Source: Maylandia zebra (taxonomy: Eukaryota > Chordata > Actinopteri > Cichliformes > Cichlidae). Taken from it: 64,000 bases of DNA. Shown piece after piece: positions 24,206 through 52,152 of this stretch. A program made the translations under genes and the position numbers. The stretch's first letter is position 1, and each line of letters opens with the position of its first letter. The stretch covers positions 2,081,326 to 2,145,325 of the forward strand of contig NC_135170.1 in assembly GCF_041146795.1 (NCBI RefSeq), written 5' to 3'. The notes beneath the pieces were generated by a model. It was not told the DNA's origin and did no database searches. It was given only the letters and a program-made list of their open reading frames with translations.

Positions 24206-24221
24206 TTAATAAGATAAGATA

Positions 24222-24252
<31 letters not shown>

Positions 24253-24343: not shown

Positions 24344-24433
<90 letters not shown>

Positions 24434-27422: not shown

Positions 27423-29456
27423 AGCTCATGATCTGGATTCATTGTGGCTGCTACACAGATACTTCTGGGTCACTTCTCTCAGTTAGGAACCTTCCTCACC
27501 AAACTGACTGTTGGACCACACCCCTGGTTTCATGAGAAATTGTTTCAGCCATGATTTCTCTTCCTGTATTTCAGAGTAAAGACTGAAGTGACAAATGGAA
27601 GCATGTTTAAAAAACACAATGTGAGAGAGACGTTGAGGTCCTTAGAAGTTACCCTGGGTTTTTCTGTCACCCTGCTAGATGTTACACACCTTGTTATTGG
27701 ACTGATTTCTACTGCTGGACTACTCCTGCGGAGAGTAACAATACTCTTACTAATTAGCTCCCTTTCACAGCTTTGGGGATATTTATTTTTGTGTTTGCAG
27801 CGCTGTGAGCCAGAACAGCGAGAGAAAAATCTGCAGCAGCGACGAGCCGAATGCTTACGTGAATCGCAGCAGCTGCACATGTGCTACGCTGAATTAGAGG
27901 ATATCTTTGCTCTGGATTTCTATTTCTACTTTTTCATTTCTATATGATTCTTCTTGCATCTAAACAAAGATGATTCAATTTGCTAAATGTTGATGGCTCT
28001 TCGTGCTCAGGTGTAAATGAGACGTAATATTTGCTCTTGGTTTGGTTCTCCTGTACAGAACCTTGCAGTACAACAGAAACCTAAAAACATTATTTGTAGT
28101 TGTTATTCTTAGTTGTTCTGCTGCCTAAATACCACAGGGTCTGATTATGAAGTTATTGAGCTGCACATACTTTACGACCTGCTTAAGTTCGAGGTCACAG
28201 CGTCTGTAGAGCAGCTGGAACATAATGAAGTCTACAAGGTTAAAGTTTTCTCTTCAGTTATTGTTCTTTCTGCTGCTTGGTTTGATGGATCTGAGAGCTT
28301 TTGTTTTTATTATTGTTATTATAATTATCATGAATATTTTACTCTCTAGAAGCTTTAAAATAGTGTTTGTGTTTGAAAAAATTGATTTAAGAATTGAACA
28401 GAAACATCTGTCCTTCTGAAAATGGCCCAAAGGCACGGAGACAAAGTCAAAGGATGCAACCTGTAACTTTCTCTTCCTTCATGTCAGGACCATCATCCAT
28501 GATTTATATAAAATGCATATAGCAACAGTAGCACTTTAGTTTGGACTTTATGATTTCTGTAACTGGAAAATATTATTTTGTTCAAAGACAGAAGTGACCG
28601 CATAGTTGCAACATCAAAGGGAAATATTAATTAATTAGCATCAAGTATATTTGTTGCTTAAGCGTTTGCACTATAACTTAAGTAGGATTATAACTTTTAA
28701 GGAAGGAAAGATTTCAGATATTTAGTTCACTGTTTCAGTTATTTTATATGAAATTAAAACATTTACGTTGGTCAAATATGATGCTCTAAATCAAATAAAA
28801 GTTTGAAAATAAATGATGTATTTTTAAATGCTGCAACAAATGTTCACAAAAAGTAACTATAATTAAAACCAGTTAAACAAAATCAAATGTTTGAATCATG
28901 CTTAACCAAATGCCAGGCTGGAGAGCTGAACCTAAAGTATACGTAGAAAGATTTCAACATCTGAGCAGTTTTTAATGTTTTTATCACATATAAATGTCAC
29001 AGCAGTGGGTCCTGGCCCAATGCTTTGTGTTTTTGCTTTTCTTTGACTCTTGTTTTTCTTGCTTTTTGTTCTTCTTATTTATCAGGCTCTCAGTAATCTT
29101 AGTTCTCCCTCCCTCAGTGTTCATTTCAGCCTGTGTTTAGTTTCTGTTCCCGTGTCCCACGTTTCATCGTTTCATGTCGAGTCAGCCCTGTCTCTCTGTT
29201 TCCTGTGTCTCCCCAGTCAGCCCCGCCTCCCTCGGGCACTCATGTGTGATACAGAGTAATAAACCTGACTACATTTGCTACACTCTCTTTATTACCTGTG
29301 ACTTTAAAATTCATACACTAATTATGTCTGCCCATCTCTCTAATGTGAAGGTCAAAGGTCAACATCCCAGTGACATAAGAATAATCCCAAAGGGGCAAAG
29401 GCAGCGGTTAATTTAGCATAAATAGCATTAAGGGTACAGCAAGGATATACTTTTAC
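27423..29456 (+). repeat. 2.03-kb inverted repeat, arm A
   Basis: Reverse-complementary to 50120-52152 over its full length with about 1% or less difference seen by eye. It ends at acttttac directly against the left terminus of the KDZ/Zisupton element. Contents are unassigned: small frames at 27588-27947 and 28113-28349 flanked by splice-like sites, and an LTR-like stretch with an aataaa at about 29000-29290. These frames are not recognised and are not called as genes. Confidence 0.95.
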
Positions 29457-30003
29457 CAACCCGTTCTCACTCCCGACGCGTAAAATAATGACGATTTGTC
29501 ACGTCCCTTAACTTCTCATGCTGACGCCTAAGGTACCCTTCCACCTTTTTATGTGACGCTGTGGGTTGTCAATTCATTCCAATATGAACGCGCTCGCGGC
29601 GATCAGAGACGCTTCGAGCAGAGGCTCCAGCCATCCATTTACTCCAATAATAACCCCGTCACGGCGAAACATGACGCCGTGAAGCACAATCTAACTGGAG
29701 ACCCGGGGACCCTCTCCGCGAACGGGTTTTTCTCCCTAATTTAATGCTTTCTTTTAATGACATCGTTAACGTTTCTCAACAAAAACACGTGAAAGTATCA
29801 CTGATAATTCAACAATAAAATGGCTTCATGTTGTGGCCATCACACAGTGTTTTCCAAACTGATTCACGATCTGAAAGTGCGCAGATTTAACGTACATAAT
29901 CCTTTGTTAGGTTTATTATTTTCATTTCACACGTAAAACACATTTATAGATTCATTCACCACTCCTGTTAGTTTTGGATGCGCTCGGCTCCAGCCAATCA
30001 GAC
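29457..30003 (+). repeat. Left 547-bp terminal inverted repeat
   Basis: Exact-length match to the reverse complement of 44614-45160 with three substitutions and no indel. It contains a 63-codon frame (29553-29744) found in both repeats, which I treat as incidental. It may hold the promoter of the plus-strand gene, since a splice-donor-like site (ctaa|gtaagt) lies about 380 bp further in. Confidence 0.97.
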
Positions 30004-30820
30004 CAATTTACGCAGACGCACTAATCCCGTAACTGCACACTACCCATAATCCTCGACCGCCGTCGCTATGGGAATGAAGATAACAACAGCTTGGTGCTAC
30101 CCGTTATTCCTTTATTTACTCTAAAATAATAACCAGCGATAATACGAAATTAAACTGGCCCAGTGTTTAATTATGTAATTAAAAATTGCAAATTTTAGTA
30201 TTTTATTTTTTACAAATTGCAATATTTATCTACAGCGCGCCTTTAGCGACACGTCAACAGATCTTAAGCAAGGCGATTGGATGGTTTTTACTGCAATGCA
30301 TCTTGGGAGTCGCAGTAAATGTATCTTTCAACTCACGGTCCTGCAGCGAAGTTTTCGACTGGACACGAGGCAGATCCTAGCTAAGTAAGTTGTGATAAAC
30401 TGGGGGTAATTTGCATGTTCACTGAAATATTAATTTCAGTGATATTAAACTGATATTAAACTTGAAATGTTTTCACAGAGCAGTCTGTGTACCAAGAGAA
30501 CTACTTCTGCAAAAGTTTATTTAATTTTTTTTGTGATGTATTCTCATGTGTAAGACACTTGCTTGGCCACCCAGCTAATGTTAGTACTGCTCTATTTTAG
30601 CAATGTATCTTTTCTGTAATCAATTCAGGTTTTTTTTAACCCTATTCACGTAATTAACTCAATATTAACGACTTTAATCTCGTAATTGATTTTTTTTCTA
30701 AATATGGTGTAATACTGCCTCGTAATATAAGTTATTTCTTTGGTCATAAATTATTTTTGTAATCGTTTCACCAAAACAGACCTGAAATAATCCCTACATG
30801 TTCCATTTTCATTTGCAGAA

Positions 30821-33800
30821 ATGACAAAGCCAAAAACCAAACCATGCCCTTCCTGTCAGGCCCCAAACACCTGCAACAGGAAGACATGCAGTGGATGTCT
30901 GGGCAGCCTGAACCTAAAGGAGGGATTGAAAAAGAAACAAGAACAGTTTAAAAACAGTAACTGGGCTGCCTCTGTTAAAAAAAACAGAAATGCGAGCAGG
31001 GTGGTTAATTCAGCCCAGTTGTCAGTAAGTTTAAAAGTTCTGATCTAATAAGTGGTTGGTCTGATAGACAATTCTTTATTAATCACAGTTGTCAATGTTT
31101 TCTTGTATATCATGAAGTAAGAAACTAACAAGACATGTATATACACATAAAATATTAATTTATAAAAGAGCATAAATAAAAAAGTTATTCACATCAGAAT
31201 AACATCATCACACTAAAGACATCCAACTAGAAAAAACTTGTTAAAAACTATTTTTATTTAAGCTACTTCTGATTTTTAATTTAATCGGCTATTAACTGAG
31301 AGACAAAACATTTCAAGATGGATTTTATCATACATTTACAGGTTTGGTCACCATAAATACTTTTTAACTATCGACAACAATAAAACAACAAAGATGTGAA
31401 ACTTAAAGGTTTGTTATACATCCGTTTGCTTACATGAAAGACTGGCTGCATGTTTTTCTTTGTTGTTCTTGCAGGTTTCAAAGCTACACGCCCTGGGCTA
31501 CCAACCAATTCTGTTTCTTGGACAGTTTGACCGTAAGGGCCGTATAGTAGGGGACGTGATCACTCAGATCGAACCAGCGGAAGGTGCTGCACGTGACATC
31601 CTCATGAAGATGAGGAAGCTTTATGAACACCTTCTGAAAAGTAAGATATGCTTTGTCCATTATCTGTAACCAGGTGTCCTTATCAGGTAGCCTATCCTAG
31701 CTGTCTTTGGGTGATACTCATGGTACACCCTAGATAAGTAGGCAGATCATCACGGGGTACATAGAGACAAACAAGATGGTGAGGATGAGGATAGTTAACA
31801 GTCACCAGCTATTCTATTCTACTTACTCTATTCTGTTCTGTTCTATTCTAGTATTCAGCCAAGGTTCAGACCAGTAACCTTCTTGCTGTGAGGTGACAGC
31901 TGTCCTACATGTCCTGTTGCTAACATGAAAATAGTGTTATATCTGCCTTATTACCTCCCCATGTGTCGGTCACATCACCAAAGCTAGCCATACTGAACCT
32001 CTGGTGTTATCCACCTGAACAGCTTTGTATGTGTGTGTGTGTATAGTATGGTCTTTCACACTCATGTATATACAAATGTAATTTTAAAAATCTTCACAAA
32101 AACCAGACCTGATAATTCTCTTCGAGACTTTCTAGTATAACAAATGTTATAATGTTACCAATATGAACACCAAGATTCTTAAATAACTTATATACTTCTT
32201 AAGAGGTCACCTGATTACCTCCCTGAGGTAGTTAGCATCACCATTGTACAAAACTCCTAAGTCACAGTACTAGCTTGAAGTGTCAAATGTTATTCACTAC
32301 AAAGTCAGGAAAGTAGTGTCATCAGAGGAAAAAGTCATTATCTATCTGGATTTATAGTCACACTCATTAATTTTTTAATGTACAATGTAGAAAAGCACTA
32401 CAGATGTCACACTACCCCCGAGGGCACTTGTACTGAATGATTTGGGTCAGTGAGTGTGTGAGATGACTTATTTGATGCCAATATTTACCAGTTGTATCTT
32501 TAGTAAAACTTAACTGAAAACATGCAAATCACTACTTATTATGTGTTTATGTGTACTGTACATTTTTTCAACCCATTTTAATGAATGTTTAATATTTAAA
32601 ATTTTTCAGAATTACAAGCTTCACCTCCTGCTAAACGTTCTACACCAGCAGCTGGACCATCCTCTGCTGACAGTGTCGATGCTGGACCAGTCCCAGACCC
32701 AGAGGCTCTAAACGAGGAATTTATTCTTCATTTAGAGCCTGAACCAACATCTTCCCTCTGTCAGCCTCCTGCATCCTCCTCTTCATCTCTGCTTCCTCCT
32801 GCATCCTCCTCTCCAGCTCTGCTTCCTCCTGTATCCTCCTCTCCATCTCTGCTTCCTCCTGCATCCTCCTCTCCATCTCTGCTTCCTCCTGCATCCTCCT
32901 CTCCATCTCTGCTTCTTCCTGCATCCTCCTCTCCATCTCTGCTTCTTCCTGCATATTCCTCTCCATCTCTGCTTCCTCCTGCATCCTCCTCTCCAGCTCT
33001 GCTTCCTCCTGTATCCTCCTCTCCATCTCTGCTTCCTCCTGCATCCTCCTCTCCATCTCTGCTTCCTCCTGCATCCTCCTCTCCATCTCTACTTCCTCCT
33101 GCATCCTCCTCTCCATCTCTGCTTCTTCCTGCATATTCCTCTCTGTCTCTGCTTCCTCCTGCATCCTCCTCTCCGTCTCTGCTTCCTCCTGCATCCTCCT
33201 CTCCATCTCTGCTTCCTCCTGCATCCTCCTCTCCATCTCTGCTTCCTCCTGCATCCTCCTCTCCATCTCTGCTTCCTCCTGCATCCTCCTCTCCATCTCT
33301 GCTTCTTCCTGCATATTCCTCTCTGTCTCTGCTTCCTCCTGCATCCTCCTCTCCATCTCTGCTTCCTCCTGCATCCTCCTCTCCATCTCTGCTTCCTCCT
33401 GCATCCTCCTCTCCAGCTCTGCTTCCTCCTGTATCCTCCTCTCCATCTCTGCTTCCTCCTGCATCCTCCTCTCCATCTCTGCTTCCTCCTGCATCCTCCT
33501 CTCCATCTCTGCTTCCTCCTGCATCCTCCTCTCCATCTCTGCTTCTTCCTGCATATTCCTCTCTGTCTCTGCTTCCTCCTGCATCCTCCTCTCTGTCTCT
33601 GCTTCCTCCTGCATCCTCCTCTCCATCTCTGCTTCCTCCTGCATCCTCCTCTCCATCTCTGCTTCCTCCTGCATCCTCCTCTCCATCTCTGCTTCCTCCT
33701 GCATCCTCCTCTCTGTCTCTGCTTCCTCCTGCATCCTCCTCTCCATCTCTGCTTCCTCCGGCATCCTCCTCTCTGTCTCTGCTTCCTCCTGCATCCTCCT

Positions 33801-35745
33801 CTCCATCTCTGCTTCCTCCTGCATCCTCCTCTCCATCTCTGCTTCCTCCTGCATCCTCCTCTCTGTCTCTGCTTCCTCCTGCATCCTCCTCTCCATCTCT
33901 GCTTCCTCCTGCATCCTCCTCTCCATCTCTGCTTCCTCCTGCATCCTCCTCTCCATCTCTGCTTCCTCCGGCATCGTCCTCTCTGTCTCTGCTTCCTCCT
34001 GCATCCTCCTCTCCATCTCTGCTTCCTCCTGCATCCTCCTCTCCATCTCTGCTTCCTCCTGCATCCTCCTCTCCATCTCTGCTTCCTCCTGCATCCTCCT
34101 CTCCATCTCTGCTTCCTCCTGCATCCTCCTCTCCATCTCTGCTTCCTCCTGCATCCTCCTCTTCATCTCTGCTTCCTCCTGCATCCTCCTCTCCGTCTCT
34201 GCTTCCTCCTGCATCCTCCTCTCCATCTCTGCTTCCTCCTGCATCCTCCTCTTCATCTCTGCTTCCTCCTGCATATTCCTCTCCATCTCTGCTTCCTCCT
34301 GCATCCTCCTCTTCATCTCTGCTTCCTCCTGCATCCTCCTCTCCATCTCTGCTTCCTCCTGCATCCTCCTCTCCATCTCTGCTTCCTCCTGCATCCTCCT
34401 CTCCATCTCTGCTTCCTCCTGCATCCTCCTCTTCATCTCTGCTTCCTCCTGCATATTCCTCTCTGTCTCTGCTTCCTCCTGCATCCTCCTCTCCATCTCT
34501 GCTTCCTCCTGCATCCTCCTCTCCATCTCTGCTTCCTCCTGCATCCTCCTCTCCATCTCTGCTTCCTCCTGCATCCTCCTCTTCATCTCTGCTTCCTCCT
34601 GCATCCTCCTCTCCATCTCCACATCCTGCATCTCCCTCAATTTCTACGGTGTACACCTCGGATGTCCCAAACAAAAAAAGGACAAGGAAAGGTTAGACGT
34701 TATGGTATTGTAAATGTACGAAACACATGACAGGTTCGTTAAGTTTGTTAAGATTTCTTTTTCTTAATTTTTGCATTTTTTCCAGTTTTACAGAACTCAT
34801 GTAAATATTTCATTTGTTATTTTTCAGAATGCCGAAAACACCGTACACAGAAGATTTTCAAATATGAAGAGATAGTAGACAGGAGAGTTGTAAATGTAAG
34901 TAATTTAGCCTGCTGTTGTGCAGATTTGTTTGCGTCTTTGGACTTCCCAGATTTGAACTGTGCCTGACTGACTATCCATAAGCTTTTGTATTTGATGAAT
35001 CTTCACTAATTCAGCCACTGAGTCAGGATTTCGCTCCAAATAGGACATTAAATAAGAACAGACCACCTGATACGACCTGGTCATGCTGCCTTCCTGATGT
35101 TTACGTTCTTTAAAGTCCTCCTGACATCATGCTCATTATGAGTTTTGGAGGTGGACATGGTCAACACTTTTAAGAGTAGGCATAAGACTTTACTTCTTTA
35201 TAGAGCTTATAGTTAGGGCTGGTTCAGCTCAGCCCTTAGTTATGCTGTAATAGGACCAGACTGCTGGGGGTTAGTGTCCCCCCCCTCTCTCTCTGTCTCT
35301 TTCAGGGTTATGCAGGCTCAGTATTGGTTGAAGATGCAGTCACGTCTCCTTTTACTGAAAACTCTCCCCCTCTCCCTCACCACCATCTGTAAACATACAT
35401 GTCTCAGTAATGCAGTTCATGCATGTTACTAACTAAACTTCTTCCCTGGAGTTTCTGTGCTCTCTCATCCAGCAGGTTCCGATGGATCGTGGCTGCTGCT
35501 GTGGTCCTGCTTGACGTCTGCTTCATATATTAATACTCTCTGACTTGATTTGATTAATTTATATTACAATGAAGGTGTATAAAGCATGACATGAATATAG
35601 AAGATATTTCATCCTAAAAAATTGTCATATGTCACAACCTAAATTGTCCTATTTTGTGTGTGGTTGTTGTTTGTTATGTTTTTCTCCTGACAGTGGCAAA
35701 GTGTGGGATGACACATGGGAACCTGCGCAGTTTTACACACAGTAA
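30821..35745 (+). CDS. Second gene of the KDZ element: Cys-cluster / repeat / chromodomain-like protein
   Basis: Five coding exons follow from splice sites and continuous phase: 30821-31024, 31475-31640, 32610-34691, 34828-34895 and probably 35694-35745. The start ATG lies just after an acceptor (tttgcag), so an untranslated exon precedes it. Exon 1 has Cys-Pro-Ser-Cys ... Cys-x4-Cys-x2-Cys. Exon 2 encodes a compact domain rich in Gly and Ile (Phe-Leu-Gly-Gln-Phe-Asp-Arg). Exon 3 (694 codons) is mostly a 10-residue Pro/Ser/Leu repeat. Exon 4 gives Lys-Tyr-Glu-Glu-Ile-Val-Asp-Arg-Arg-Val-Val-Asn, like strand 1 of a chromodomain; the last exon gives Cys?-Gly-Lys-Val-Trp-Asp-Asp-Thr-Trp-Glu-Pro, like the chromodomain TWEP helix. 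The exon linking them (phase 0 to 2) is not visible in an 0.8-kb intron that holds repeat DNA, so this copy may be damaged. An aataaa is at 35810. Role is inferred only: DNA or chromatin binding for transposition. Confidence 0.7.
32760..34620 (+). repeat. 30-bp minisatellite, about 62 units, coding in the plus-strand exon
   Basis: The consensus unit encodes Leu-Pro-Pro-Ala-Ser-Ser-Ser-Pro-Ser-Leu on the plus strand. All units are exactly 30 bp with no indel, so the frame is kept; variants are substitutions (for example Tyr for Ser, Val for Ala, and ctgtct for ccatct). Higher-order repetition of variants shows recent unequal exchange. The complementary strand is also open in two frames (639 and 637 codons), an effect of the unit composition. 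Confidence 0.97.
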
Positions 35746-38547
35746 ACCAGGCACCACAGGTGGCAGAGATCGCACAGTTCACAGCTTGTAGTTCAGCATA
35801 AAAGTTCAAAATAAAATATTTACTATACATTTCAACCAGTGTCTCTGTTTCACTCTCTAATTGTGGCTTAAGTACCTAACATATTCATGAATCTGATCGA
35901 TCAATAATATCTTCCCTGCACTCGACATCTCATAGTTTTACATATCAGCCAACATTATTGTCTACATGCTCATAAATATAGAAGTGACTTGCTTATTATA
36001 ACATATTACAAGGTAAAGTAATACTGCACTGCACGTATAGTAAGTAACACCTACTGTGTATGGGAGCCTAAAGCAAAGTTAACTGCACCAGTACCAGCTT
36101 CAGAACATATTGTATATTATATGTTTCTACCTTTTTGTAATATGTCATGTTTAGATGCAGTGACAATTGCACATTTGGAGTTGTGGTCATATGTGGTTTT
36201 TATATACAGGGTATTAAAAAAATTGACATTTTTTGCTATTTTTCTTGTTTGTTTGCACAATATTATTGTGTACATATTACATATGTAACATTATGGTTAA
36301 TATTATTATTAGATATCAAAGATACAATTTGATTGAGGGTTTTCCTGTCATAATTTCAATAAAAATGCAATTACACACGTAAACAATAGGATCAAAATAA
36401 ACTTTTAAAAAGTCTGTTGATCAAATGCTGATTTTCAAAACATTCTAGAGGAAAACAGAGATAAAATAATCTGAACAGTAACAGTGATCGTGGATGATGA
36501 TGGAGGCTTCAATGGATTATTCTGTTTCAATCAATAGGTTCGTATCTATGACAATAATTTGATAAGTTTAACAGGTTGGTTTAGGCCTGGCAAAAAAGCA
36601 AATATTCACAAACTTTTGTTTTTGAAGAATGTTGATCTTTTTTGGGATGAAGCTATCTGGCAAAATGAGACAGCCCTTTAACCTCATCTGTACGTCTATC
36701 ATGTGGCTGTGGTACTGGATTTTGGTTAGATGCATATGCAGGTTACAGCTGGGGAATGGCAGTATGTTGTGGATTGATTTGGCATGTTCAACCACTGTTA
36801 CACCAAACTCTCTCACTTATAACATGATCAAGGCCTCTTACCCAGTGTCATGGATTCTCTGTAGTTTTGGGGACACGGGGCCAAAGTCTGAGGCAATAAG
36901 TCAGATCAAAGAAGGCAATGATTCTAAAATGGGAGTTTACTTATGTCATTGTATATATCCAGGAATATGTGCCAGAGGATAGTTGTCATGTAATCAATAT
37001 TAAATCAAAGTATTCCTTAATTACCACAGCTGACACGAGTTCTCCATAGCTGCCTGCTGTCTCAGGATCTGTCTCCAAAAAGGACCAGGGAGCGCTAACA
37101 TGTTATGTTCTAAACTGATGAAGAAAATGCACATTAAACATAGTATAAACTTACTGAGTGAAGTAATGTCAAGAGGATTCCTTTAGCTCCTATTGGGTTG
37201 GTTCCTTGATCAATGCAATACAGAATCATTAATCTGGTTTTATGTAATGTCCTCAAAACATGTCAAAATGAGGCTCACTAGTCTGTGTGGCCTCCACATG
37301 CCTGTATGACCTCCCTACAACACCTGGGCATGCTCCTGATGAAGTGGCAGATGCTCTCCTGATGGATCTCCTCCCAGACTCCAGGACTAAAGCATCTGCC
37401 CACTCCTGGACATTTTGTGGTGCAGTTGGTGGATGGAGCGAGACGTGATGTCCCAGATGTCCTCAAATGGATTCAGTTCTGGGGAATGGGCGGGCCAGTC
37501 CACAGCATCAATGCCTTCGTCTTGCAGGAACTGCTGACACACTCCAGCCACATGAGGTCTAGGATTGTCTTGCATTAGGAGGAACCCGGGGCCAACCGCA
37601 CCAGCATATGGTCTCACAAGGGGTCTGAGGATCTCATCTCAGTACCTAATGGCAGTCAGGCTACCTCTGCCGAACACATGGAGGGCTGTGCAGCTCCCCA
37701 AAGAAATGCCACCCCACACCAAAACTGACCCACTGCCAAACTCATGCTGGAGGATGTTGCAGGAAGCAGAAGGTTCTCCACGGCGTCTCCAGACTGTCAC
37801 AAGTGCTCAGTGTGAACCTGCTTTCATCTGTGAGGAGCACAGGGCGCCAGTGGCAAAGTTGCCAATCTTTGTGTTGTCTGGCAAATGCCAAACATCCGGC
37901 ACAGTGTTGGGCTGTAAGCACAACCCCACCTGTGGACGTCGGGCCCTCATACCACCCTCATGGAGTCCATTTCTGACCGTTTGAGCAGACGTGCACATTT
38001 GTGGCCTGCTGGAGGTCATTTTGCACAGCTCTGGCCTTTCTTTCCTACCCCACAGTACCTTCCCTTACCATTTGTTTCCTACTCTTTTACTTCTTCTTTG
38101 ATCACGGTTGTCTTTCTAGATAAGCAATTTCATTTGCTCTGGGGCGAGTCACTGGCTCGGGTGCATTCTGGGACTGTCAGTTCACCAGTGTGCTGGCATG
38201 CTTCTTAACAAACACACCACTACAGCAAACATCTCAAATGTACTTGTTGATTTCTTCGACAAAACACTGAACAAAAAATTTACTTGTGAGTGTGCTGCCT
38301 GGTGCTTTTAAATTTTGTGATAATTTGAGCAGCCCAGAAAGCATCCCATAAATTAAATTATGTTATCGTATCTGAACATGTACACTAGTCATTAAATTAG
38401 ATGGGAAATAATGATTCAGGGTAAACAACTGCACCAAGGAAATTCCATTTTTCTTCTCAAAATGTAAAATGTCTGTTGAAAAATCACATTAAACAGAGAT
38501 GTGATTAACTTTTTATTTTACCAAACAAAACATCAATGATGACACAA
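34896..38547. other. Last intron, 3' region and gap between the two convergent genes
   Basis: 35150-35520 resembles an inserted repeat inside the last intron of the plus gene. 35746-37261 is AT-rich with no gene seen. The Tc1 relic occupies 37262-38030 and the remainder to 38547 is empty. Confidence 0.5.
37262..38030 (-). pseudogene. Tc1/mariner transposase relic
   Basis: On the minus strand, from high to low coordinate: an Arg-Ala-Arg-Arg-Pro helix-turn-helix block (about 37930), Asp-Glu-Ser-Arg-Phe after a frameshift (about 37820), then Ala-Gly-Ala-Val-Gly-Pro-Gly-Phe-Leu-Leu-Met-Gln-Asp-Asn-x-Arg-Pro-His with Asp-Trp-Pro-Ala-x-Ser-Pro-Glu-Leu-Asn-Pro-Phe-Glu (37617-37400). These are the D-D-E regions of Tc1 transposases. 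Several frameshifts and stops make it inactive. It sits in the gap between the two KDZ-element genes. Confidence 0.88.
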
Positions 38548-40369
38548 TCAGTCTTCATCAGAAGTGCTCAAATCACTCTCAGTGGCATCGTCTGGAATGT
38601 CCTCCTCCTTCTCCGAGTCCATTTCCAGGAGTGGTTGGTGGCTGAGGATTCTCTTGTACACGTCCTTTACTTTGAGCATTTCAGCTTTCAGTTCACTTTG
38701 TTTTTTTAAAACCAGGCTACAGAGTCCCTTCTGTGCATCCTCCGACATGCCAACAAAGGAGGCTGTAAAAAGAACAAAACAAATAAATGAGAAAAGTAAA
38801 AAAAACAAACAAAAAAAAACATCACCTCATAAACACAAGGAATTAGGATGCTGTAATTAAACATTTTTTTAAAAGGGAGAAGGCAGTGTTAGCTAGCAAT
38901 CTAGATATAGGTAAAAGATCCAGTAAGACTTTAGCATCTGCTCTTATTTTCAATCGATTCATCAAAAAATTAATAAATAAATAAAGTGCTTACAGTCTGA
39001 GGAGATTGTCCCCAACACCACAGAACGCATTCGCAACACTGTCCAGTGATGCTGCATCTCCCTGCAGAGCATCATCTCCTCCTCTCTCAGGCGCCTCACA
39101 GCCATCACCTTCTCAAAGACCTTTCTCTTTGTCCGGAGGTCAGCAGCAGCTACAGTTTAACAACATCAGATGGGAAAACATAGCAGCATATTATGATTCA
39201 AGAACAAAACATTCAACTACTGCTCAGATACTGGGAGTTTGTTTAAAAAGGATATTTATAAATCAAGAGCTTACGTTCACTTGTGCTCTGCCAGGGCCAA
39301 ATATCGGTCTGCATGAGGGCATCACTGGATACGATTTGCTTTGTTGGTTCAGCGAGCTTGTTGTAGTCGTCAACAGCAGCCGCCAAGCGTTTCTTCTCAA
39401 CTAAGATGACCTTGCGAATTCTGTGTCGCCTCTTGTTGCTATCTGTAAATAAGCATAAAAAATTCACACCTTCACATAATGTATATAGTTTCATTTTAAT
39501 CTACACTCATCAATTTGTTTGCTGGAACAAATCACATCCAGCTCAAACAAACCTGGATCTGATTTGATTCTGTTTACAAAGTAGCTGCACAAGCTGTACA
39601 AACTCAGCATCAAACCGTCCGTTTCAAAGAAACTGGGACGTACCATTTTGTCTGTAAAGACTTTGTGTTCGCACTCTGATGATGACGACAAGCTCCTCTA
39701 TTCGTGCCTGCAACGCTCCAAGGCTGCCATCAGTTTGATCACTTTCTAAGTGAGAGGAATATTAATCAGAGCACAGGATGAGTAACAGTCACCAAACTAC
39801 ACTGGACTCTGTAATCACTGACTTGATGACATTCATTATAAGACATCTGGAGCCTTCATGTGCTGCTATCTCATGATAATCATGAGATAACAAGTATGTT
39901 GGTGTTCAGGTTTATAAAACCAACTAGTACGACATTATTTCAACCCAGGTTCTATCCAATTTGATGAAACGCAACAACTCTGCCATAAATTTGCTTTTCC
40001 AAGGCTTATTTTTCATTGTTTGTTGACACTGTCAGAAAGATCTTAACTCTAAGTTCTTTAATGAGGCCATGGTGGGTCCTATTGTTATACATGAGTTATA
40101 CATCCTTTGTCCCACACGCCATCAGACTGTTTAACTCCTCTCTGGAGGGGAGAGGGAGGGGAAACAGGAGGACAAAGGAGGGGGGAACAACTAAGCTGTA
40201 GTGCCTCTTCACCTCACTGTACAATACCTTGTGCAATACTTTTTGTAAATAGTCAACAGTGCAATAGAATCAATACTTGAAATGTGCAATTCACTTGTAT
40301 TTTTATTTTTTATTCCTATTTATTCTATTTATCCCCTTTGTATATTTTATTTATATTTGTCTCTGTATT

Positions 40370-40437
<68 letters not shown>

Positions 40438-43400
40438 ACAGTTCTGTAACTGTAACTTTGGTCGGTGCTGTGCTTTTTTTGGAAGTCGAATTTCCCAGAG
40501 GAACCCACCCGAGGGATTAATAAAGTTCTATCTTATCTTATCTTATCTCTTATCTCTTATTATATTGAGACTCACCTTCAGCCCATTGCTGCAGTGTGTC
40601 GTCATCCACACCCAGCTCATTTCTGCTCGCATTCAGGCTCCACTTGTTCTCTAAGGATCCTTATGATCTAAGAATGCATTCATAAATGTCATTCATATTG
40701 ACATTAAAAGAGTACTGGTGTTTTCCCCCCATTACCACACACATTAAAATGGGTGTTGAAAAAATGACCTTTAGATATCACTGGCTCAAAGTGCGGCCCA
40801 GTTGTTCCACTTTCCTTTTGTTCCACCCCAAAGCCAGGAGGGTCAGCATGTCTGTTCGCCCTGCATTTCAGTTAGTATACAAATAAGAATGAATGAGCAG
40901 GAGACTGAGTGGAATCTCAGACACGGACACACACCTGCTTTAGACATGTACTTCGTTGTGATGGCCGCCCTAGACAGGAAACTGTTTACTTGTTCCACCT
41001 CTTCTCCAACTGTTGAACCGGCCCCATCCTGAAACGCACCTCCCCATTTGATCTATAGAAAGGAGGTCACAATACATGACTGCTGAATTCATTCAACCTT
41101 ATAACAAAATGTCTCAAACTAATCCAAAACTACAAGCTGCAGTATACCTCGCATTTCCAAGTGTGAGCTTTGCATGCATGACGGAGAGAAGAGGAAGCAT
41201 TGACAAGAGGTTCCTCAGCTCAGGGCACTGCTGAGCCACCTTGGTTAAATAGGGGAAATATTTACAGGCCACATCGGAGCAAAGGAACGTAATATGTCCT
41301 GGGACGCTAGCTGCCAACTTCCTCTGGAGAAAAAGGGGGTAAGCAAAGATCTCCCCTCGAAACATGTTCAATGCAGCTAAGAGGACTCCGTGGCGACAAA
41401 CAGCTATTTCCATGCCCTCCTCATCCAACTTCCCAGTGGACTTTTTGGACGACTCCTTTGCTGCAGTCCAAGATGAAGATCCGCACAACCCTTTCCCCGG
41501 GACCTATACACTCAAAGATTTTAACATAAAAGACATGACATGATGAAGCCCTATCAGGGACAAACTTTTTAAAACAAATGCATAACAATTAGCTGAATTA
41601 GCCTCGAGTCACACAAGACCTCAGATCTCCCCAGGACAGCACTGATAACACAAAATAAAAATCATGTTGTTTTTTTTAAATACACATGGTGACAAAATTA
41701 AGTACACATTAAGATAAAGTAAAGTAAATAGTATTACGACAACACCAAGAGAAAAATAAAAAAAAAATATCGACCCATCCATATATGTCTACACACACAC
41801 ACACACACACGTAAGTGTATATGGTTACGGCATTAACGTCATTTTAACAAGATTAACAGCACTAATATATATATGTGTATCTTACATGATTTGTGTGTCT
41901 CTGGATGTATTTCACAAACTCAGCAACTTCCTCATCTTTCTCAATGAAGACACCTTCAAAGTTCCCCTGCTCTGAAGTGCTGAACGAACACAGTGACAGT
42001 TGTTTGAAAAGAAACATTAAAATACATTTTTCTACAAATCCATATTTGACTTATGTCCACAATGCATAATGTACCTTGCATTAGACTGAAAGCGATAAAG
42101 CTTGCGGTTTCCATCAACTGAGACGGCAAGCATGTGTGGAGTGCAGGCAGGGCAGCTAAAGCATGGCTCCTTGCACATCCTGTCCACCTCAAACTTTACA
42201 GCACTCCACTCCAAGAAACTTTTACTGAAGGCATCAGCTGATATTCGGCCATTCTTTTACATAGAGGACATACAACAGAATATTCAAGGACAGTCAGCAT
42301 AAACATTGATTTGCACAATTTCCTTAAACTTGGCAAATTTAGGAACTCACCCTTCCAAAATGGGCTGTTCGTTCATCCAGCATTTTGACAAATGCCTTAA
42401 GTGACATCCCTGGTGCAGCCTTCTTAATGTCATAGAAAGACTGAAAGGCATCCATTGAAAACAGGGTGCAGAAATTTAAGGTGCCAGGCCAATATCCACT
42501 ACCCAGGATGTCCTTAACTGAGGGGGACCACATTAGGCCACAGCTGGTGCAAGGTTATAACGGCCTTTAGAAAGGATCAGGAGAAATTCAGTCATGGCTC
42601 AAAGCATTCATTTTTTTCATGTTGTTTTCAAAGCGGTCTGGTAAATCCAAATGACCTTTGACAGGTGCCCACATATACTGCGGGCCGAGGGTAATTAAAA
42701 CAAAGATAGCAATGCACAATTTGCAATAAAACCTCCAAACACATCTATTGTGTATGTAGTGTGTGACAAAAGGGCAACTTACCATTTATGGTTACAAGAG
42801 CCACAATTGCACCGGGTGAAACCTCAACGTTACCTGCTGGGCAGTCACACACAGTCTGGCCTTTGCACAGGCAACAGCCGAACTAACATTAAAACACACA
42901 ATATATATAAAAAGAATTAGAAATTAACTGATACACAATAAATATACAATAACAGCACCCACTCATACTCATACATAGCAAGAAATGCATAAGACTTAAA
43001 AACTGTACCTATTGGCTTGTGAAACTCTGATGAAGGCTGCAAAAACCCTCCTGTTACTGCCTCTCTGCTGTGCAGGACAACGCGTGTGTGAACTGCAATA
43101 TCACAGTCAGCACAAAGGAATGGAAGAGACAGGCAGTCCAGACACCTCACAACTACTTGTTTGCCACACTGACACACACGGTGTGACTGTGGATCCAGAG
43201 TAGCTAACATATTGTCTATAAGACAAGGCCTGGCCTCTTTCCACTTTTGCGAGGACACCATGTTTCTGATCGCCCAGTGAGTAGCAGCTGACTCAGACGA
43301 CGTCTCACAAGTCATGGCTGCGTCCTCTTCTCCATCCTCCAACAACTGAAGGAGCTCCTGACGAAGCACCTCAGTTCCACACACTAACAGAAAAAAAATA

Positions 43401-44400
43401 AAGAAAGGAAGAAACTCTTCCACAAAGTGAAAAACACTCTGGGCAGTATGTTTCTTAGGACTGCACAAAAGCCCTGCATAACTCAACTATAACAACAAAT
43501 ATAAAAGTAAACAGAAATCACAACATATACAAGAAGGTAAAGTACCTTTTGTTGGGTTGACACTGGCAACATAACCAGGTTCTTCACGTGGACATTGATG
43601 CTGCTCTCTGGACACTGGGGGGGGGGGATGAAGAATATTTACTTACTGAAATTCTTCGGTGAAAACAAGTTGTGAGATAAAATCAATGGTTGTGTGAACA
43701 CTGACCACGTGGCATGCAACTAGTACTTCGACTGGTTGATGGTCTTTGAGGAATAAAAGCTCCCTGTCTGTCACGTGTTTTCCAGCGCACTGGTCTTGGC
43801 TGAGGTTCACTCCGTGCATCATTCTACGCAATTAACAAGGAAAAAAGGGAACACCTAAAATACAGTCCATGATTAAAGCAAAGATTATCAAACATCTTAA
43901 GTTAACCAACTTAATTTGACATAAACTTTAAACAAAAATTCAAATAACATAACGTTTACTCCGTACAAAATATGTGTTCCCTCTTTAACAACTGTTTCCA
44001 CTAAAAATGTTACCTGCATATCTTGAAGGAGTTCGTCAGCAGCCTGAAGCTCTTCCTCCAGCTCGGGATCCTCTGAATCACTCATTTTCAAGCTAAAGAG
44101 GAAAGAGATTTTTGCAGAACTCAGTGACATAAACACATAACTAACGCAACTCAAATGATTTTCAGTCTTGGCGCTCCGGTTAATGTTAGCAATTAACGTT
44201 AGCATCATCAGTTTGTAAAGAGCTAGCAGAACTCTTAGCGCAAAAACTGCTTTGCGCACCATGTGAGGGTATTTTGCAGCACACAAGTCCTTTAACGTTT
44301 GTAATAGATTTAATCCATCATCGTTGGATTAAATGGCTAATGCTGCAGTAGACACGTGTAGTCGTTACCTAGCAAGCATGCTGACGGTAGCTGTAGCCAT
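38548..44400 (-). pseudogene. KDZ (Kyakuja-Dileera-Zisupton) transposase gene, about 17 exons, with lesions
   Basis: Exons (minus strand): 44400-44369, 44092-44014, 43823-43707, 43614-43546, 43383-43009, 42882-42783, 42564-42351, 42253-42075, 41979-41886, 41503-41148, 41052-40935, 40860-40769, about 40650-40576, 39741-39644, 39442-39275, 39149-38994, 38762-38548; about 845 codons. An acidic N-terminus precedes the KDZ-associated Cys cluster (Cys-Gln-Cys-Gly-Lys ... Cys-Leu-Asp-Cys ... Leu-Cys-Ala-Asp-Cys), then Gly-Tyr-Trp-Pro-Gly-Thr, Cys-Pro-Ala-Cys with Ser-Val-Asp-Gly-Asn (first Asp), Cys-Arg-His-Gly with a Tyr-Pro-Leu block, Cys-Ser-Asp-Val-Ala-Cys (second Asp), Gly-Glu-Glu-Val-Glu-Gln (Glu), and a basic coiled C-terminus. 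Lesions: phase clash between exons 5 and 6, frameshift after Tyr-Asn-Leu-Ala-Pro in exon 7, one-base loss near 41165, TGA at about 40778 where Arg is expected, unclear frame in the 40.6-kb exon. Translation from the first ATG reads in frame through the first two splices. Confidence 0.88.
40103..40555 (+). mobile_element. 5'-truncated LINE copy inside a KDZ-gene intron
   Basis: Matches the reverse complement of about 24208-24695, starting within the RT C-terminus (tcctttgtcccacacgcc) and ending in a (TTATC)n tail. It carries a (TG)n(TA)n tract at 40374-40436. It lies in the intron between the 40.6-kb and 39.7-kb transposase exons, in antisense orientation to that gene. Confidence 0.93.
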
Positions 44401-44613
44401 TTTTAAATACATTACACCGTTTCCGAGATCAGTCACCTCTGTTTGTTTGAAGCGTTTATGAAAAAACTAACTTTGAAACACACATCAAGGTATTATGTTA
44501 AATATATGTATTTTTTACATACCTGCATTAGAATCAATCAGTTCCGCCTCATTTTCTTATTCTTATAAATGGGTCTCTCCGTTCTCCCGTCAGCCTTTGC
44601 TTACACAGGTTGC

Positions 44614-45160
44614 GTCTGATTGGCTGGAGCCGAGCGCATCCAAAACTAACAGGAGTGGTGAATGAATCTATAAATGTGTTTTACGTGTGAAATGAAAATA
44701 ATAAACCTAACAAAGGATTATGTACGTTAAATCTGCGCACTTTCAGATCGTGAATCAGTTTGGAAAACACTGTGTGATGGCCACAACATGAAGCCATTTT
44801 ATTGTTGAATTATCAGTGATACTTTCACGTGTTTTTGTTGAGAAATGTTAACGATGTCATTAAAAGAAAGCATTAAATTAGGGAGAAAAACCCGTTCGCG
44901 GAGAGGGTCCCCGGGTCTCCAGTTAGATTGTGCTTCACGGCGTCATGTTTCGCTGTGACGGGGTTATTATTGGAGTAAATGGATGGCTGGAGCCTCTGCT
45001 CGAAGCGTCTCTGATCGCCGCGAGCGCGTTCATATTGGAATGAATTGACAACCCACAGCGTCACATAAAAACGTGGAAGGGTACCTTAGGCGTCAGCATG
45101 AGAAGTTAAGGGACGTGACAAATCGTCATTATTTTACGCGTCGGGAGTGAGAACGGGTTG
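44614..45160 (-). repeat. Right 547-bp terminal inverted repeat
   Basis: Reverse complement of 29457-30003. The three differences lie near 44849, 44957 and 45071. The first transposase exon begins 213 bp inside it, so the repeat probably supplies that gene's promoter. The next base to the right (45161) starts unrelated sequence that does not match the left flank. Confidence 0.97.
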
Positions 45161-48100
45161 AGTTGGTGTACGGCGAGCTGTGAGAGGACAGAGATGGAGA
45201 ACGCACATTTAACTCTTTAACAGGAGATACGTTACGACTAACAGACGACTGCTGTCTACATGATGTCTTTGCAGCCCTTATGCTACATGTTACACAACTT
45301 TTCTTCATGCCAACAAGACTGAGGTGCCACATAGTCGACACATACAGCTGATTATGATGCATGTTTTACTATTGCTATGTTCACATCATCTGCTTGGCTT
45401 TATTACTGAGAGCCTGGAGATCCTCTGACGTGTGCATGGCTGATGTGAAGTATGATTAGTCCTACATGACATCAACAGCAGAGGCAATGAAAGCTTTGTT
45501 GTTAACAGGTTGTAGGTAAAGTCAAATGTCTACTTCTACACTTGTGTTGGGTAAAGTTCTTCTCACTGCAGCAGATTTATATCTGTGCTTTCACAGGGCG
45601 TGATGTGGAGCTCAGCGCTGAGGTGCAGGTCTCCTTGGAGACGCCATCCTGGCTGAAATATTATCATGCTTCCAAAACATTTCAGCTTTTATTTTGAAAG
45701 AAACAAGACTTGAAAACGAGTCCCCTTCTTCCTCTTTGTCTTTGTTCTTCAGAGGAGTGTCACCTGGACAAACTCAGGGCTGTTCTAGAGCCTTTCTTAT
45801 TATTTGACTCCATAGAAATAAAACTGAATGGAATCAAACAAAAACTCCCAAACAGCTAAAACACTTTGCTTTATTCTCTTTTTTAACAAATACGTTGAAG
45901 TCCATCCACAACAACACAGCTGAGATCTCCTTTGTAATCAAGTGTTTCCATCCTTTGTACAGATCTGCATACAAAACAATCATTTACGTCCCACAGAAGT
46001 CTAGTTACACGTAACTCTACAAGAACTGGTGAATGACAGAAACATGAGACACATGATCACAGGTGATAACAAAAAGAGAAAGAATTCATGTGTTAGTGAT
46101 GTTTTTCAGCCCTGATGGCTCATGTTGGAGAAACAAGCTGAGGTACGTGGAAAGTTCACACACACAAGTGGGCGTGAGCGCACACACAGAGAGAAACACA
46201 ACTGAAGCATCTGTTTGCTGTTTCTGCTTTCATCATCTCTGCTGCTGTGTCAGGCTGGGGTCTCTCAGTGACGTGGTTGAGGTGAAGTATGACGAGTATC
46301 CCTGATTCAGTCCATGGAGACAAAGGGCAAAGAAAGCTGTTGTTAACAAACTCTATGGTGATGTGGCATTTAGCTCCGACTCTACGCTCTGCTGAATCCT
46401 TTGAACCTGCTGATCAGTAAAGCTCTACGTGCTGCAGCAGATTGACCTCATCTGTGTTCACAGGTGTGGACCTCAGCGCTGAGGTGCAGGAGACTTTCAT
46501 TCAGTTCTCCCTGCAAACAGCATCCAGCCTGGAAATACTGTCATCTTTCCCAGAAACGGTGCTCTTATCTCAGAGAAGAAGTCTGATGTAAATAACTGCA
46601 ATCAACATAACTGCAATCAATAATGCCAACACGATGACTGTTCATAGCTCCTGCTTTGAAATACTGAACTTAAACATTGACCTGATGAAAGATCACAATT
46701 CACAGTGGCCCACTGTCAGAATCATTCTGAATATAAACTCATCGAGTTAATCTGAACCTTTCTCAAATGTGCTGTGAATAAATGCTGCTGCAAGCCACTG
46801 TGGGAAAGCTGTGTTATTATCATGGAAACATCTGTGACACATTCACAGAGGACGAGGACACAAAGGGACGACACGCAGAGGCTGTGTTAAAGTCAAAAAT
46901 CCAAATCTTTAGTCCTAAACAGGCAGTGGTTACAAACAGGAAGACGAGCAGTCCATTAAACAGTCTACAGGGTCAAACATACAGAGAATTCAAACAGCTA
47001 TTAAAAACAAATAACTGGACACTGAAAAACTTCAGTGATGTGTGAGGCACCAAAGGGAAGCAGCTGAGTATATTCAATGAATTATCTTCAAATACAAAGA
47101 CAGAAACTCCTACAGGCAGCATGCAAACTGAGCAGGATACACAAAGATCAGAGATTACAAAATAAATCAGACAAGGATTTCAAACTTACTGAGAGCAAGG
47201 CCTCTGTTACAAATCTGTCTAATAGAAAAACATGCTGTACAGATACAATACGCTCAGTGTTCATGGTCATTTAAAAACTGGCTCTACCTGAACCACTTCA
47301 ATATTTTATGAAGTCACTGAGTCGACGATTTCTACACTTTGTTTCCTTCATTGCAGTCAGAGTGTGGCTGGTAAGGATGAAAACACACACAGAGCGTAAA
47401 TTGTCTTTGTTAGTAAGAAACGTCAGCAAAGAAAAGACAAAACACACAAACACTCTCATGATATTCATGAATCATTAGAAAGCATCCAAACATTCTGCTC
47501 GTGGACTTTTACAGTCTTATTTGCACTCGCTCATCTTCATAATCATCCTGATCAATACATGACAGGGGAGGCTTTGAGGTAGGCGGGGCTCTCTGCTGAT
47601 GTCAGCATGAAAGGCAGGACCAGCGTCTGCCACATGTTGGTGAAACATCACAGTACACTGGCGTGGTTTCCTTTCCAGATGTTGGACGTTTGACACTTCA
47701 ACGTTGAGGCCAACAAGAAGACACAGTTTTGGGTCGGGTTGCTGCAGGGTTTCTAACTGAGCAAAAGCAGAAGCACACAGACCAACAGGGATCAGATGCT
47801 GAGTGTTAGAGGAACATCTGTGCTGATCACTGAATGCTGCTGTGGTCTCTTGTTGAAGTTGGCTGGTGGGACAGTCTAATAGTGATATCCTGCCCATCGG
47901 AGGAACACTTTTAAAAACACATGCAATACTTTGTTTGTATTACAGTCACAGTTTATGTTATTTTTGTCCTTTAAAAGTGTTGCTGTACTATAAAGTCCTA
48001 TAATTTGAGGCTAAAACGGCTCAGAGTCTCTCTCTCAGAGGATCTCCTTTGAAAGTGGAGACGGCTTTATCCGCTGATCCACGTCACTTTACCTGGATGT

Positions 48101-48658
48101 TTTCTTTGAAGCTGGATGAAGACTCCTCTCCCTCACTCCTGCTGCAGCTGTGTGGTCCAGTTGGCCTCTGAGGTCACAGTCAACATCTGTAGCAGAAGAG
48201 GGCAAATAAAAGTCCAGGTCACCAAAACTGGGAGCTTTTCCAAAATAGAGCGTAACTGGACTTTTTCAGCCTTACAGGCAGATAGTCGTCTGAAGCTGCA
48301 GCTTTTTCTTTTTAGCTTTTTCCAATCTCTGCTCTCGGCTTTCTTTGAGAACATGTCTGCTTTCTTGGCATGGGTCTGTCTGCTGTTGGTGAAGAGACTA
48401 AATCCACATACTCGCTACTAAGATCTCCTCAAGTAGTCTCAACCAGATTACAGTTTAAGAGTAAATGTCTCCTGAGAGTTTCACCTTGGGGAGATGCTGT
48501 CTTGCTAACATGCAATCATGAGCATTAATCTATGAGGTGAAAAAGTAATTTTAAAAGCTCCAGCCACAAGTTTTATTTCATCTGTGTTTTGGTCAGAGTC
48601 CCATCAGACCTCCAGAATGGTGTCAGAGTGTTTTCTATCCACGTGATGAGCACAGGCC
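45161..48658. other. Non-coding, with a diverged 300-bp tandem duplication (about 45390-45690 and 46255-46560)
   Basis: The two blocks share gctgatgtgaagtatga / gttgaggtgaagtatga, gctgcagcagatt and gagctcagcgctgaggtgcag in the same order. The last block is preceded in both by a splice-acceptor-like ttcacag. They could be duplicated exons of an unknown host gene. No continuous frame was found. The rest, including 46600-48600, shows no recognised gene. Confidence 0.55.
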
Positions 48659-48879
48659 TCAGGTCCAGACCTCCACGGGCACCATAGCCTCTTTGGAGCT
48701 AATAGGTGCAAGAAGGTTTTGTTGGGATAGGAACTGAAGAGGAAACTGACGAGGAAGGCAAGGATCTTCTTCAGCTCCTCCGAGCCGGGACCTCTTTGTG
48801 TAGGCCAGCATTGGCCAGGTAGCCCTCCAGCATCGCTGGATGGCCGACAGTGGAAAACCTAGAGGAGTAGGAGAGAGGT

Positions 48880-49070
48880 CCCGGTGGCGCCTGTGTCCGG
48901 CAGCCTCGCCTCTGTCAGTGCGCCCCAGGGCAGCTGTGGCTACAATGTAGCTTGCTATCGCCAGTGTGTGAATGTGTGTGTGAATGGGTGAATGACTGAA
49001 TGTAGTGTAAAGCGCTTTGGGGTCCTATGGACTAGAAAAGCGCTATACAAATGCAGGCCATTTAGGAGAG
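48880..49070 (+). repeat. Short dispersed teleost repeat
   Basis: ggcagctgtggctacaatg ... gtgaatgggtgaatgactg ... gtaaagcgctttggggtcc ... gcgctatacaaatgcaggcc is a repeat seen widely in fish genomes. I do not assign a class. It lies in the last intron of the PLD relic. Confidence 0.6.
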
Positions 49071-49189
49071 AAACAGCAGCTTGGAGCATGTCTTTATACT
49101 GTTTAGTCTTTAGAGCCACAGACTTTCTTTTAATGTCATTGTTCAGGATCTATGACTGATTATGTATTTATTGTATTCCTCCATTAGAG

Positions 49190-49508
49190 ATAGGGTGAGA
49201 AGTTCGGGAGGGGCTCAGAGTAGAGCATCTGCTGCTCCACATCGAAAGGAGCCAGCTGAGGTGGTTCGGGCATCTGACAAGGATGCCCCCTGGGCGTCTC
49301 CTGGGTGAGGTGTTCCAGGCATGTCCCACCGGGAGGAGGCCCCGGGGCAGACCCAGGACACGCTGGAGAGATTATATCTCCAAGCTGGAGGAGGTGGCTG
49401 GGGAGAGGGAGGTCTGGGCCTCTTTGCTTAGGCTGCTGCCCCCGCGACCCGGCCTCGGATAAAGCGGATGAAGATGGATGGATGGATGGATGGATGGATG
49501 GATGGATG
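49190..49508 (+). mobile_element. 3' end of an RTE/Rex3-type LINE with (GATG)n tail
   Basis: Contains the RTE C-terminal stretch (gaaaggagccagctgaggtgg, then ctcctgggtgaggtgttcc, then ggagagattatatctcc) and the 3' end ccgcgacccggcctcgg followed by GATG repeats at 49472-49508. It is 5'-truncated and lies in the PLD intron. Confidence 0.88.
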
Positions 49509-50119: not shown

Positions 50120-52152
50120 GTAAAAGTATATCCTTGCTGTACCCTTAATGCTAATTATGCTAAATTAACCGCTGCCTTTGCCCCTTTGGGATTATTCTTA
50201 TGTCACTGGGATGTTGACCTTTGACCTTCACATTAGAGAGATGGGCAGACATAATTAGTGTATGAATTTTAAAGTCACAGGTAATAAAGAGAGTGTAGCA
50301 AATGTAGTCAGGTTTATTACTCTGTATCACACATGAGTGCCCGAGGGAGGCGGGGCTGACTGGGGAGACACAGGAAACAGAGAGACAGGGCTGACTCGAC
50401 ATGAAACGATGAAACGTGGGACACGGGAACAGAAACTAAACACAGGCTGAAATGAACACTGAGGGAGGGAGAACTAAGATTACTGAGAGCCTGATAAATA
50501 AGAAGAACAAAAACCAAGAAAAACAAGAGTCAAAGAAAAGCAAAAACACAAAGCATTGGGCCAGGACCCACTGCTGTGACATTTATATGTGATAAAAACA
50601 TTAAAAACTGCTCAGATGTTGAAATCTTTCTACGTATACTTTAGGTTCAGCTCTCCAGCCTGGCATTTGGTTAAGCATGATTCAAACATTTGATTTTGTT
50701 TAACTGGTTTTAATTATAGTTACTTTTTGTGAACATTTGTTGCAGCATTTAAAAATACATCATTTATTTTCAAACTTTTATTTGATTTAGAGCATCATAT
50801 TTGACCAACGTAAATGTTTTAATTTCATATAAAATAACTGAAACAGTGAACTAAATATCTGAAATCTTTCCTTCCTTAAAAGTTATAATCCTACTTAAGT
50901 TATAGTGCAAACGCTTAAGCAACAAATATACTTGATGCTAATTAATTAATATTTCCCTTTGATGTTGCAACTATGCGGTCACTTCTGTCTTTAAACAAAA
51001 TAATATTTTCCAGTTACAGAAATCATAAAGTCCAAACTAAAGTGCTACTGTTGCTATATGCATTTTATATAAATCATGGATGATGGTCCTGACATGAAGG
51101 AAGAGAAAGTTACAGGTTGCATCCTTTGACTTTGTCTCCGTGCCTTTGGGCCATTTTCAGAAGGACAGATGTTTCTGTTCAATTCTTAAATCAATTTTTT
51201 CAAACACAAACACTATTTTAAAGCTTCTAGAGAGTAAAATATTCATGATAATTATAATAACAATAATAAAAACAAAAGCTCTCAGATCCATCAAACCAAG
51301 CAGCAGAAAGAACAATAACTGAAGAGAAAACTTTAACCTTGTAGACTTCATTATGTTCCAGCTGCTCTACAGACGCTGTGACCTCGAACTTAAGCAGGTC
51401 ATAAAGTATGTGCAGCTCAATAACTTCATAATCAGACCCTGTGGTATTTAGGCAGCAGAACAACTAAGAATAACAACTACAAATAATGTTTTTAGGTTTC
51501 TGTTGTACTGCAAGGTTCTGTACAGGAGAACCAAACCAAGAGCAAATATTACGTCTCATTTACACCTGAGCACGAAGAGCCATCAACATTTAGCAAATTG
51601 AATCATCTTTGTTTAGATGCAAGAAGAATCATATAGAAATGAAAGAGTAGAAATAGAAATCCAGAGCAAAGATATCCTCTAATTCAGCGTAGCACATGAG
51701 CAGCTGCTGCGATTCACGTAAGCATTCGGCTCGTCGCTGCTGCAGATTTTTCTCTCGCTGTTCTGGCTCACAGCGCTGCAAACACAGAAATAAATATCCC
51801 CAAAGGTGTGAAAGGGAGCTAATTAGTAAGAGTATTGTTACTCTCCGCAGGAGTAGTCCAGCAGTAGAAATCAGTCCAATAACAAGGTGTGTAACATCTA
51901 GCAGGGTGACAGAAAAACCCAGGGTAACTTCTAAGGACCTCAACGTCTCTCTCACATTGTGTTTTTAAACATGCTTCCATTTGTCACTTCAGTCTTTACT
52001 CTGAAATACAGGAAGAGAAATCATGGCTGAAACAATTTCTCATGAAACCAGGGGTGTGGTCCAACAGTCAGTTTGGTGAGGAAGGTTCCTAACTGAGAGA
52101 AGTGACCCAGAAGTATCTGTGTAGCAGCCACAATGAATCCAGATCATGAGCT
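50120..52152 (-). repeat. 2.03-kb inverted repeat, arm B
   Basis: Reverse complement of arm A (27423-29456). Differences seen include single substitutions near 50158, 50514, 50996, 51648, 51698 and 51806. Unlike arm A it continues at its inner edge into an LTR-like sequence, not into a transposon end. Confidence 0.95.

Follow-up and report, generated by a model that had tools for sequence, protein, structure and literature searches.

Known KDZ Elements and Chromodomains in Mobile DNA

Zisupton of the platyfish (Bohne et al. 2012) resembles the element treated here, a KDZ transposon copy of the cichlid Maylandia zebra, in its KDZ transposase, its many exons, its terminal inverted repeats and its teleost host. 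The Maylandia copy occupies positions 29457 to 45160 of a stretch of 64,000 nucleotides (NCBI RefSeq assembly GCF_041146795.1, contig NC_135170.1, 2,081,326 to 2,145,325 of the forward strand), called the window throughout, and holds a transposase gene and a second gene, here called the partner. The platyfish Zisupton transposase has a CxC7 cysteine cluster and one isoform with an F-box (PMC12062965), and Zisupton makes 8-bp duplications (PMC12730594, PMC12062965, PMC9297572), whereas the element here has a CxC3 cluster and no such duplication was seen. A chromodomain partner goes unmentioned in the available sections of these accounts. Among the titles and abstract openings listed from the open PubMed Central (PMC) literature, a scope outside which lie Iyer et al. 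2014 and the original Zisupton description, which may report a second gene, none names a chromodomain partner of a fish KDZ transposase.

Other KDZ elements are known from fungi and algae. Fungal KDZ elements carry genes for TET/JBP dioxygenases, proposed to help them escape silencing (PMC12730594); they too combine a KDZ transposon with an accessory gene for chromatin or DNA marks, but the accessory protein is a dioxygenase in fungi and a zinc-ribbon chromodomain protein in the fish element. The Cryptococcus elements KDZ1–KDZ3 have a CxC1 cluster, a length of about 9–11 kb, repeats of 139–241 bp and duplications of 4–8 bp at new insertions (PMC12810828). Like the fish element they have terminal inverted repeats and a KDZ transposase that bears a CxC cluster; they differ in the CxC1 type, the shorter repeats and the duplications; a partner gene is not mentioned in the available part of that paper. 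Giant DNA transposons of Ectocarpus, KDZ elements included, contain nested transposable elements fixed among copies and additional genes, and their transposase is often a predicted pseudogene (PMC12477816). In the nested elements, the additional genes and the often broken transposase they are the nearest precedent for the fish copy, although their hosts are algae, no such partner is named in the portion of the paper available, and chromodomains there sit on Gypsy integrases, where they have been linked to targeted insertion (PMC12477816). Gypsy elements likewise use a chromodomain, but theirs is fused to the integrase, whereas that of the fish element belongs to a separate protein with extra cysteine pairs. 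Accessory genes on KDZ elements are thus already known in fungi and algae, and what is of interest here is the partner family.

Terminal Repeats and Transposase Gene of the Maylandia Element

The locus probably represents a teleost KDZ DNA transposon, here as a decayed copy, which in some lineages at least carries two facing genes, one for a CxC3-KDZ transposase and one for an accessory protein. The initial annotation had described terminal repeats enclosing a minus-strand KDZ transposase and an unrelated plus-strand multi-exon gene, and its coordinates are exact: the left repeat of 547 nt (29457..30003, plus strand) starts with CAACCCGTTC, the right one (44614..45160, minus strand) has 3 mismatches to it, and both genes lie within the repeats. 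Terminal inverted repeats are a feature of the Zisupton superfamily. The element termini read CA..TG. Few stretches of the window are as rich in CpG as the repeats: their observed/expected ratio is 1.28 (left) and 1.27 (right), compared with 0.41 in the window as a whole and 0.28 in the element interior (30401–44100). A motif at the tip, AACCCGTTC (29458..29466, plus strand), recurs inverted at repeat position 264 (29720–29728) and likewise in the right repeat (44889–44897 and 45151–45159). Its 4 matches in the window all lie inside the repeats, against an average of 0.15 in shuffles, a count to be read with the fact that the motif was picked after its recurrence had been noticed.

The transposase gene runs in 16 exon pieces over 38548..44085 on the minus strand, with its ATG at 44085, 528 bp inward of the right repeat, and the pieces match teleost KDZ proteins. 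The joined pieces contain the KDZ catalytic domain (PF18758, E-value 6.5e-25, 88.5 bits against a cut-off of 26.6) and the CxC3 cysteine cluster (PF18804, E-value 2.2e-11, 44 bits against a cut-off of 26.6), and the exon with much of the catalytic domain (41114..41503, minus strand) matches PF18758 on its own at 9.2e-13. The label KDZ/Zisupton-type, given initially, is therefore right in its first half and loose in its second, the cluster being CxC3 here and CxC7 in platyfish Zisupton; CxC7 was not among the hmmscan matches at E-value ≤1 for the window transposase, and no comparison with the platyfish protein itself was made. Over at most 10 exon pieces, with low-scoring pieces dropped, the window transposase shares 387 of 393 residues (98.5%) with Maylandia protein P0039, 539 of 562 with a Simochromis protein and 554 of 578 with one of Oreochromis niloticus. 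Its nearest relatives are cichlid among the matches listed, which here and below are 120 of 249 for KDZ, every entry standing for a 90% cluster. A pattern search for KDZ relatives in viral contigs found nothing.

This gene is broken. Frame changes lie near 42850, 42560, 41168 and 40639, the evidence for the one near 41168 being a weak alignment together with a comparison to relatives, and a premature stop lies near 40780. The present copy is unable to make an intact transposase and could move only in trans. Two pieces of other elements are nested in it: a relic of a Tc1-type transposase (37390..37864, minus strand), which separates the two genes, and a retroelement-like piece (40103..40566, plus strand) that is 92% identical to the reverse complement of 24211–24700, a segment adjoining, downstream, a minus-strand reverse transcriptase reading frame.

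The Partner Gene and Its Family

The partner faces the transposase from the other repeat. Exon A (30819..31024) contains the ATG at 30821, 817 bp inward of the left repeat, and codes for a CxxC..CxxC zinc ribbon; a non-coding first exon may precede it near 30385, where a donor-like site lies. Exon B (31475..31640) codes for the bulk of a small alpha/beta domain. Exon C (32610..34691) codes for a linker in which a 10-residue unit, mostly PPASSSPSLL, is repeated in tandem, and its 30-bp array of 61.8 copies (32765..34619) accounts for the long repeat tract seen before. Exon D (34828..34895) begins a chromodomain and the last exon, E (35694..35745), ends it, all of them on the plus strand. Exons A to D share a single frame with GT-AG borders and their protein sequence matches annotated relatives, so that, together with the 16 pieces on the minus strand, the claim of two convergent spliced genes, each starting just inside one repeat, is upheld. 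D and E are out of frame because an exon is missing that in relatives supplies the central part of the chromodomain (EKEEVKVKWKPCSTC or similar); it was not found between 34896 and 35693. The Maylandia protein P0007 ends in the same read-through beyond exon D. The N-terminal part (134 residues) gave just two matches among the PDB sequences, at E-values of 0.45 and 0.72.

The partner belongs to a multicopy teleost family. A first search gave 30 relatives at E-value ≤10 and a masked profile 77 at E-value ≤1e-6, 61 of them new, and every relative whose organism name is credible comes from a teleost; several distinct entries each occur in Oreochromis, Sarotherodon, Maylandia, Carassius and Onychostoma. 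Some Oreochromis records are also labelled Mustela, which was taken for contamination, and four Sarotherodon relatives (P0002, P0015, P0020 and P0023) probably bear wrong source names, such names including Down syndrome cell adhesion molecule, interleukin 17F and dual specificity phosphatase 3. A pattern search for partner relatives in viral contigs gave 7 matches, of which not one was confirmed. From N- to C-terminus, the family architecture is a zinc ribbon, a small alpha/beta domain, a hypervariable linker that differs lineage by lineage, and a chromodomain with extra cysteine pairs. Among 91 relatives, many of them partial, 58 show the N-terminal cysteine pattern, 30 the C-terminal one and 19 both.

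The C-terminus is a chromodomain. Its fold in the relatives has the three strands and C-terminal helix of that domain; 45 of 46 matches of the profile to PDB sequences at E-value ≤1 are chromodomain proteins, by name or on follow-up look-up (best 6.3e-4), as are 48 of the 50 Foldseek matches listed, and one relative (P0155) is named 'Chromo domain-containing protein' by its source. Set against this, Foldseek returned no match at an E-value of 0.001 or better, and the Pfam Chromo model, found at E-value ≤1 in 7 of 9 relatives, reached its curated cut-off in none of them. Chromodomains that read methyl-lysine have three aromatic cage residues. In 12 aligned sequences of this family F10 is kept or nearly so and W31 is kept, but the third position is an invariant Cys34, and the partner is therefore not filed as a methyl-lysine reader; an invariant W41 might replace the third aromatic. 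The end that was called chromodomain-like is thus a true chromodomain in the relatives and an interrupted one in this copy.

Joint Occurrence of the Two Genes

Three lines of evidence support, although they do not prove, the initial proposal that the two genes are parts of a single mobile element, and the partner appears on these grounds to move with the KDZ gene in Maylandia and in the catfish and loach lineage. The annotated Maylandia zebra partner (LOC112434373, P0007) and KDZ gene (LOC112434374, P0039) have consecutive numbers on one contig of 38,717,768 bp. Between the catfish Silurus and the loach Misgurnus, 310 of 337 partner residues and 554 of 590 KDZ residues are identical. Among cross-order pairs this one ranks first for the partner (93.8% in local alignments, the next being 80.6%) and fourth for KDZ; the Silurus partner and KDZ genes share one contig of 29,056,285 bp, and the KDZ lineage concerned is distant from the cichlid one, with 44–45% identity to the window transposase. 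Finally, across the 18 species with both families the matrix of best identities for the partner correlates with that for KDZ (r 0.418 over 153 pairs, p 0.0005 by permutation), also when only cross-order pairs are taken (r 0.356, 102 pairs, p 0.004). In addition, the KDZ gene models of Maylandia and Sarotherodon continue into the Tc1 relic found 3' of the KDZ exons in the window, and therefore the body of the element downstream of the transposase is common to copies.

Near-identity across orders is also found for KDZ genes considered by themselves. The proteins of Esox (P0145) and Carassius auratus (P0106) have 95.7% identity along 653 residues, and there are several other pairs of this kind from different orders; judged by sequence, transfer of KDZ elements between fishes seems to be frequent.

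Flanks and Integrity of the Copy

The initial annotation called the transposon complete, which does not hold: it has no target-site duplication, its transposase has four frame changes and a stop, and its partner has lost one C-terminal exon. The 8-bp target-site duplication of the Zisupton superfamily is absent at this rearranged locus, and the copy is therefore not filed as Zisupton. The left flank, X (27423..29456, plus strand), terminates at the base before the left repeat, and recurs inverted at 50120..52152 (minus strand) with the same terminal base and 99.56% identity (8 mismatches and 1 gap in 2034 positions, 2.03 kb). Since the inverted copy reaches exactly to this base, the locus has been rearranged. 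Alternative transposition of Ac/Ds yields rearrangements with a breakpoint at the repeat tip. The X pair is possibly the footprint of such an event.

Competing Explanations

It is unlikely that the partner comes from another mobile element that was inserted into the cichlid KDZ element and is a passenger by chance, as the Tc1 relic is. Nested insertions are present in this copy, and a number of observations weigh against joint travel. Nearly all listed partner genes are without a proven KDZ neighbour, and consecutive gene numbers were seen only in Maylandia among the matches listed. Genes on the same contig in four species (Maylandia, Sarotherodon, Silurus and Paramisgurnus) were considered as evidence of linkage and set aside, their number being about that expected by chance on a rough count. 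Among the matches listed, some species have KDZ and no partner and others the reverse; Centropristis, whose KDZ is by score the closest non-cichlid one after Phoxinus and reaches up to 96% identity to cichlids in short stretches, is among those without a partner. Such one-gene species are not decisive, given the part of the KDZ matches listed and their clustering. Many species pairs also show identities for the two genes that do not agree well: 75.0% for the partner and 84.7% for KDZ between Carassius auratus and Maylandia, 80.6% and 61.4% between Carassius auratus and Oreochromis, 100% and 58.8% between two Gadus species, and 94.2% and 45.7% between Carassius auratus and Anabarilius. The p values of the matrix correlation, from 2000 permutations, ignore species phylogeny. 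A chance passenger is at odds, however, with the correlation itself, with the fact that Silurus and Misgurnus are nearly identical in both genes, in a KDZ lineage so far from the cichlid one, and with the position of the partner, which begins just inside one repeat and mirrors the transposase at the other; moreover, no inverted repeat of at least 25 nt was found around the partner gene alone. Capture of a host gene by one KDZ family is a very improbable origin for the partner: the partner is spliced, has ordinary domains and is annotated as a gene in many fishes, but the multiple different entries within each of several genera, the lineage-specific linker and the near-identity between orders speak against it.

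A further explanation concerns the repeats themselves, which could be the inner part of an inverted duplication of 2581 nt (27423–30003) with 4959 nt (45161–50119) interrupting its right arm. X borders directly on the repeat, the two are similarly diverged (8 mismatches and 1 gap over 2034 positions for X, 3 mismatches over 547 for the repeat), and no duplication of 1–8 bp flanks the repeats, whose neighbouring bases, read by eye, are ACTTTTAC and AGTTGGTG; these points weaken the transposon interpretation. The duplication is nevertheless quite unlikely, as the split falls exactly at a CA..TG terminus with AACCCGTTC, a motif confined in the window to the repeats, the repeats stand out in CpG content with genes beginning just inside them, and the 4959-nt stretch is without a flanking duplication. 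A rearrangement in which the tip of the repeat served as breakpoint explains the data equally well and, because of the tip motif, is favoured over the larger inverted duplication; the flanks of the transposon would then have been rearranged during or after insertion.

Proposed Mechanism

If the locus is a two-gene KDZ transposon, the CpG-rich promoters in or beside the repeats would transcribe both genes; shared transcription driven from the repeats is compatible with their CpG richness. The transposase would move copies in trans. The N-terminal part of the accessory protein may bind element or host DNA and its chromodomain chromatin, so as to steer insertion to certain chromatin or to keep the repeats unsilenced, while the linker would be a freely expanding repeat. 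The proposal of a two-component transposition system in which the partner is required for transposition is unproven. A wider version is doubtful: that CxC3-type teleost KDZ transposons are two-gene elements as a rule, that the zinc-ribbon and cysteine-chromodomain protein, with an NRF1-like core, binds both the unmethylated CpG-rich repeats and host chromatin and thereby guides or protects the transposase, and that the pair crosses fish orders as a unit.

Other Features of the Window

Several features lie outside the element. A reverse transcriptase reading frame (24605–25600, minus strand; RVT_1) has a match to ALKBH8_N, and the retroelement-like piece within the KDZ element is similar to the downstream end of this frame. 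Segments 2484–8642 and 57136–63300 form a direct repeat of 6.2 kb with 99.1% identity and differing flanks at both ends. One or more C2H2 zinc-finger genes with tandem fingers occupy 53778–54962 and 52799–53479 on the minus strand, the longer open reading frame having 12 zf-C2H2 stretches, and a 477-residue open reading frame at 6–1436 (minus strand) contains a SCAN domain (E-value 8.7e-12). A search of the window with Rfam gave nothing at gathering score.

Implications

The near-identity of both genes between loach and catfish would add a case of two-gene horizontal transfer among fishes, unless one of the assemblies is contaminated. If the partner is a regular component of these elements, they would represent a vertebrate DNA transposon that encodes a chromatin-binding protein distinct from its transposase, and the choice or alteration of chromatin by such elements would become directly testable. 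Many multicopy fish proteins now listed as 'uncharacterized' would in that case gain a name.

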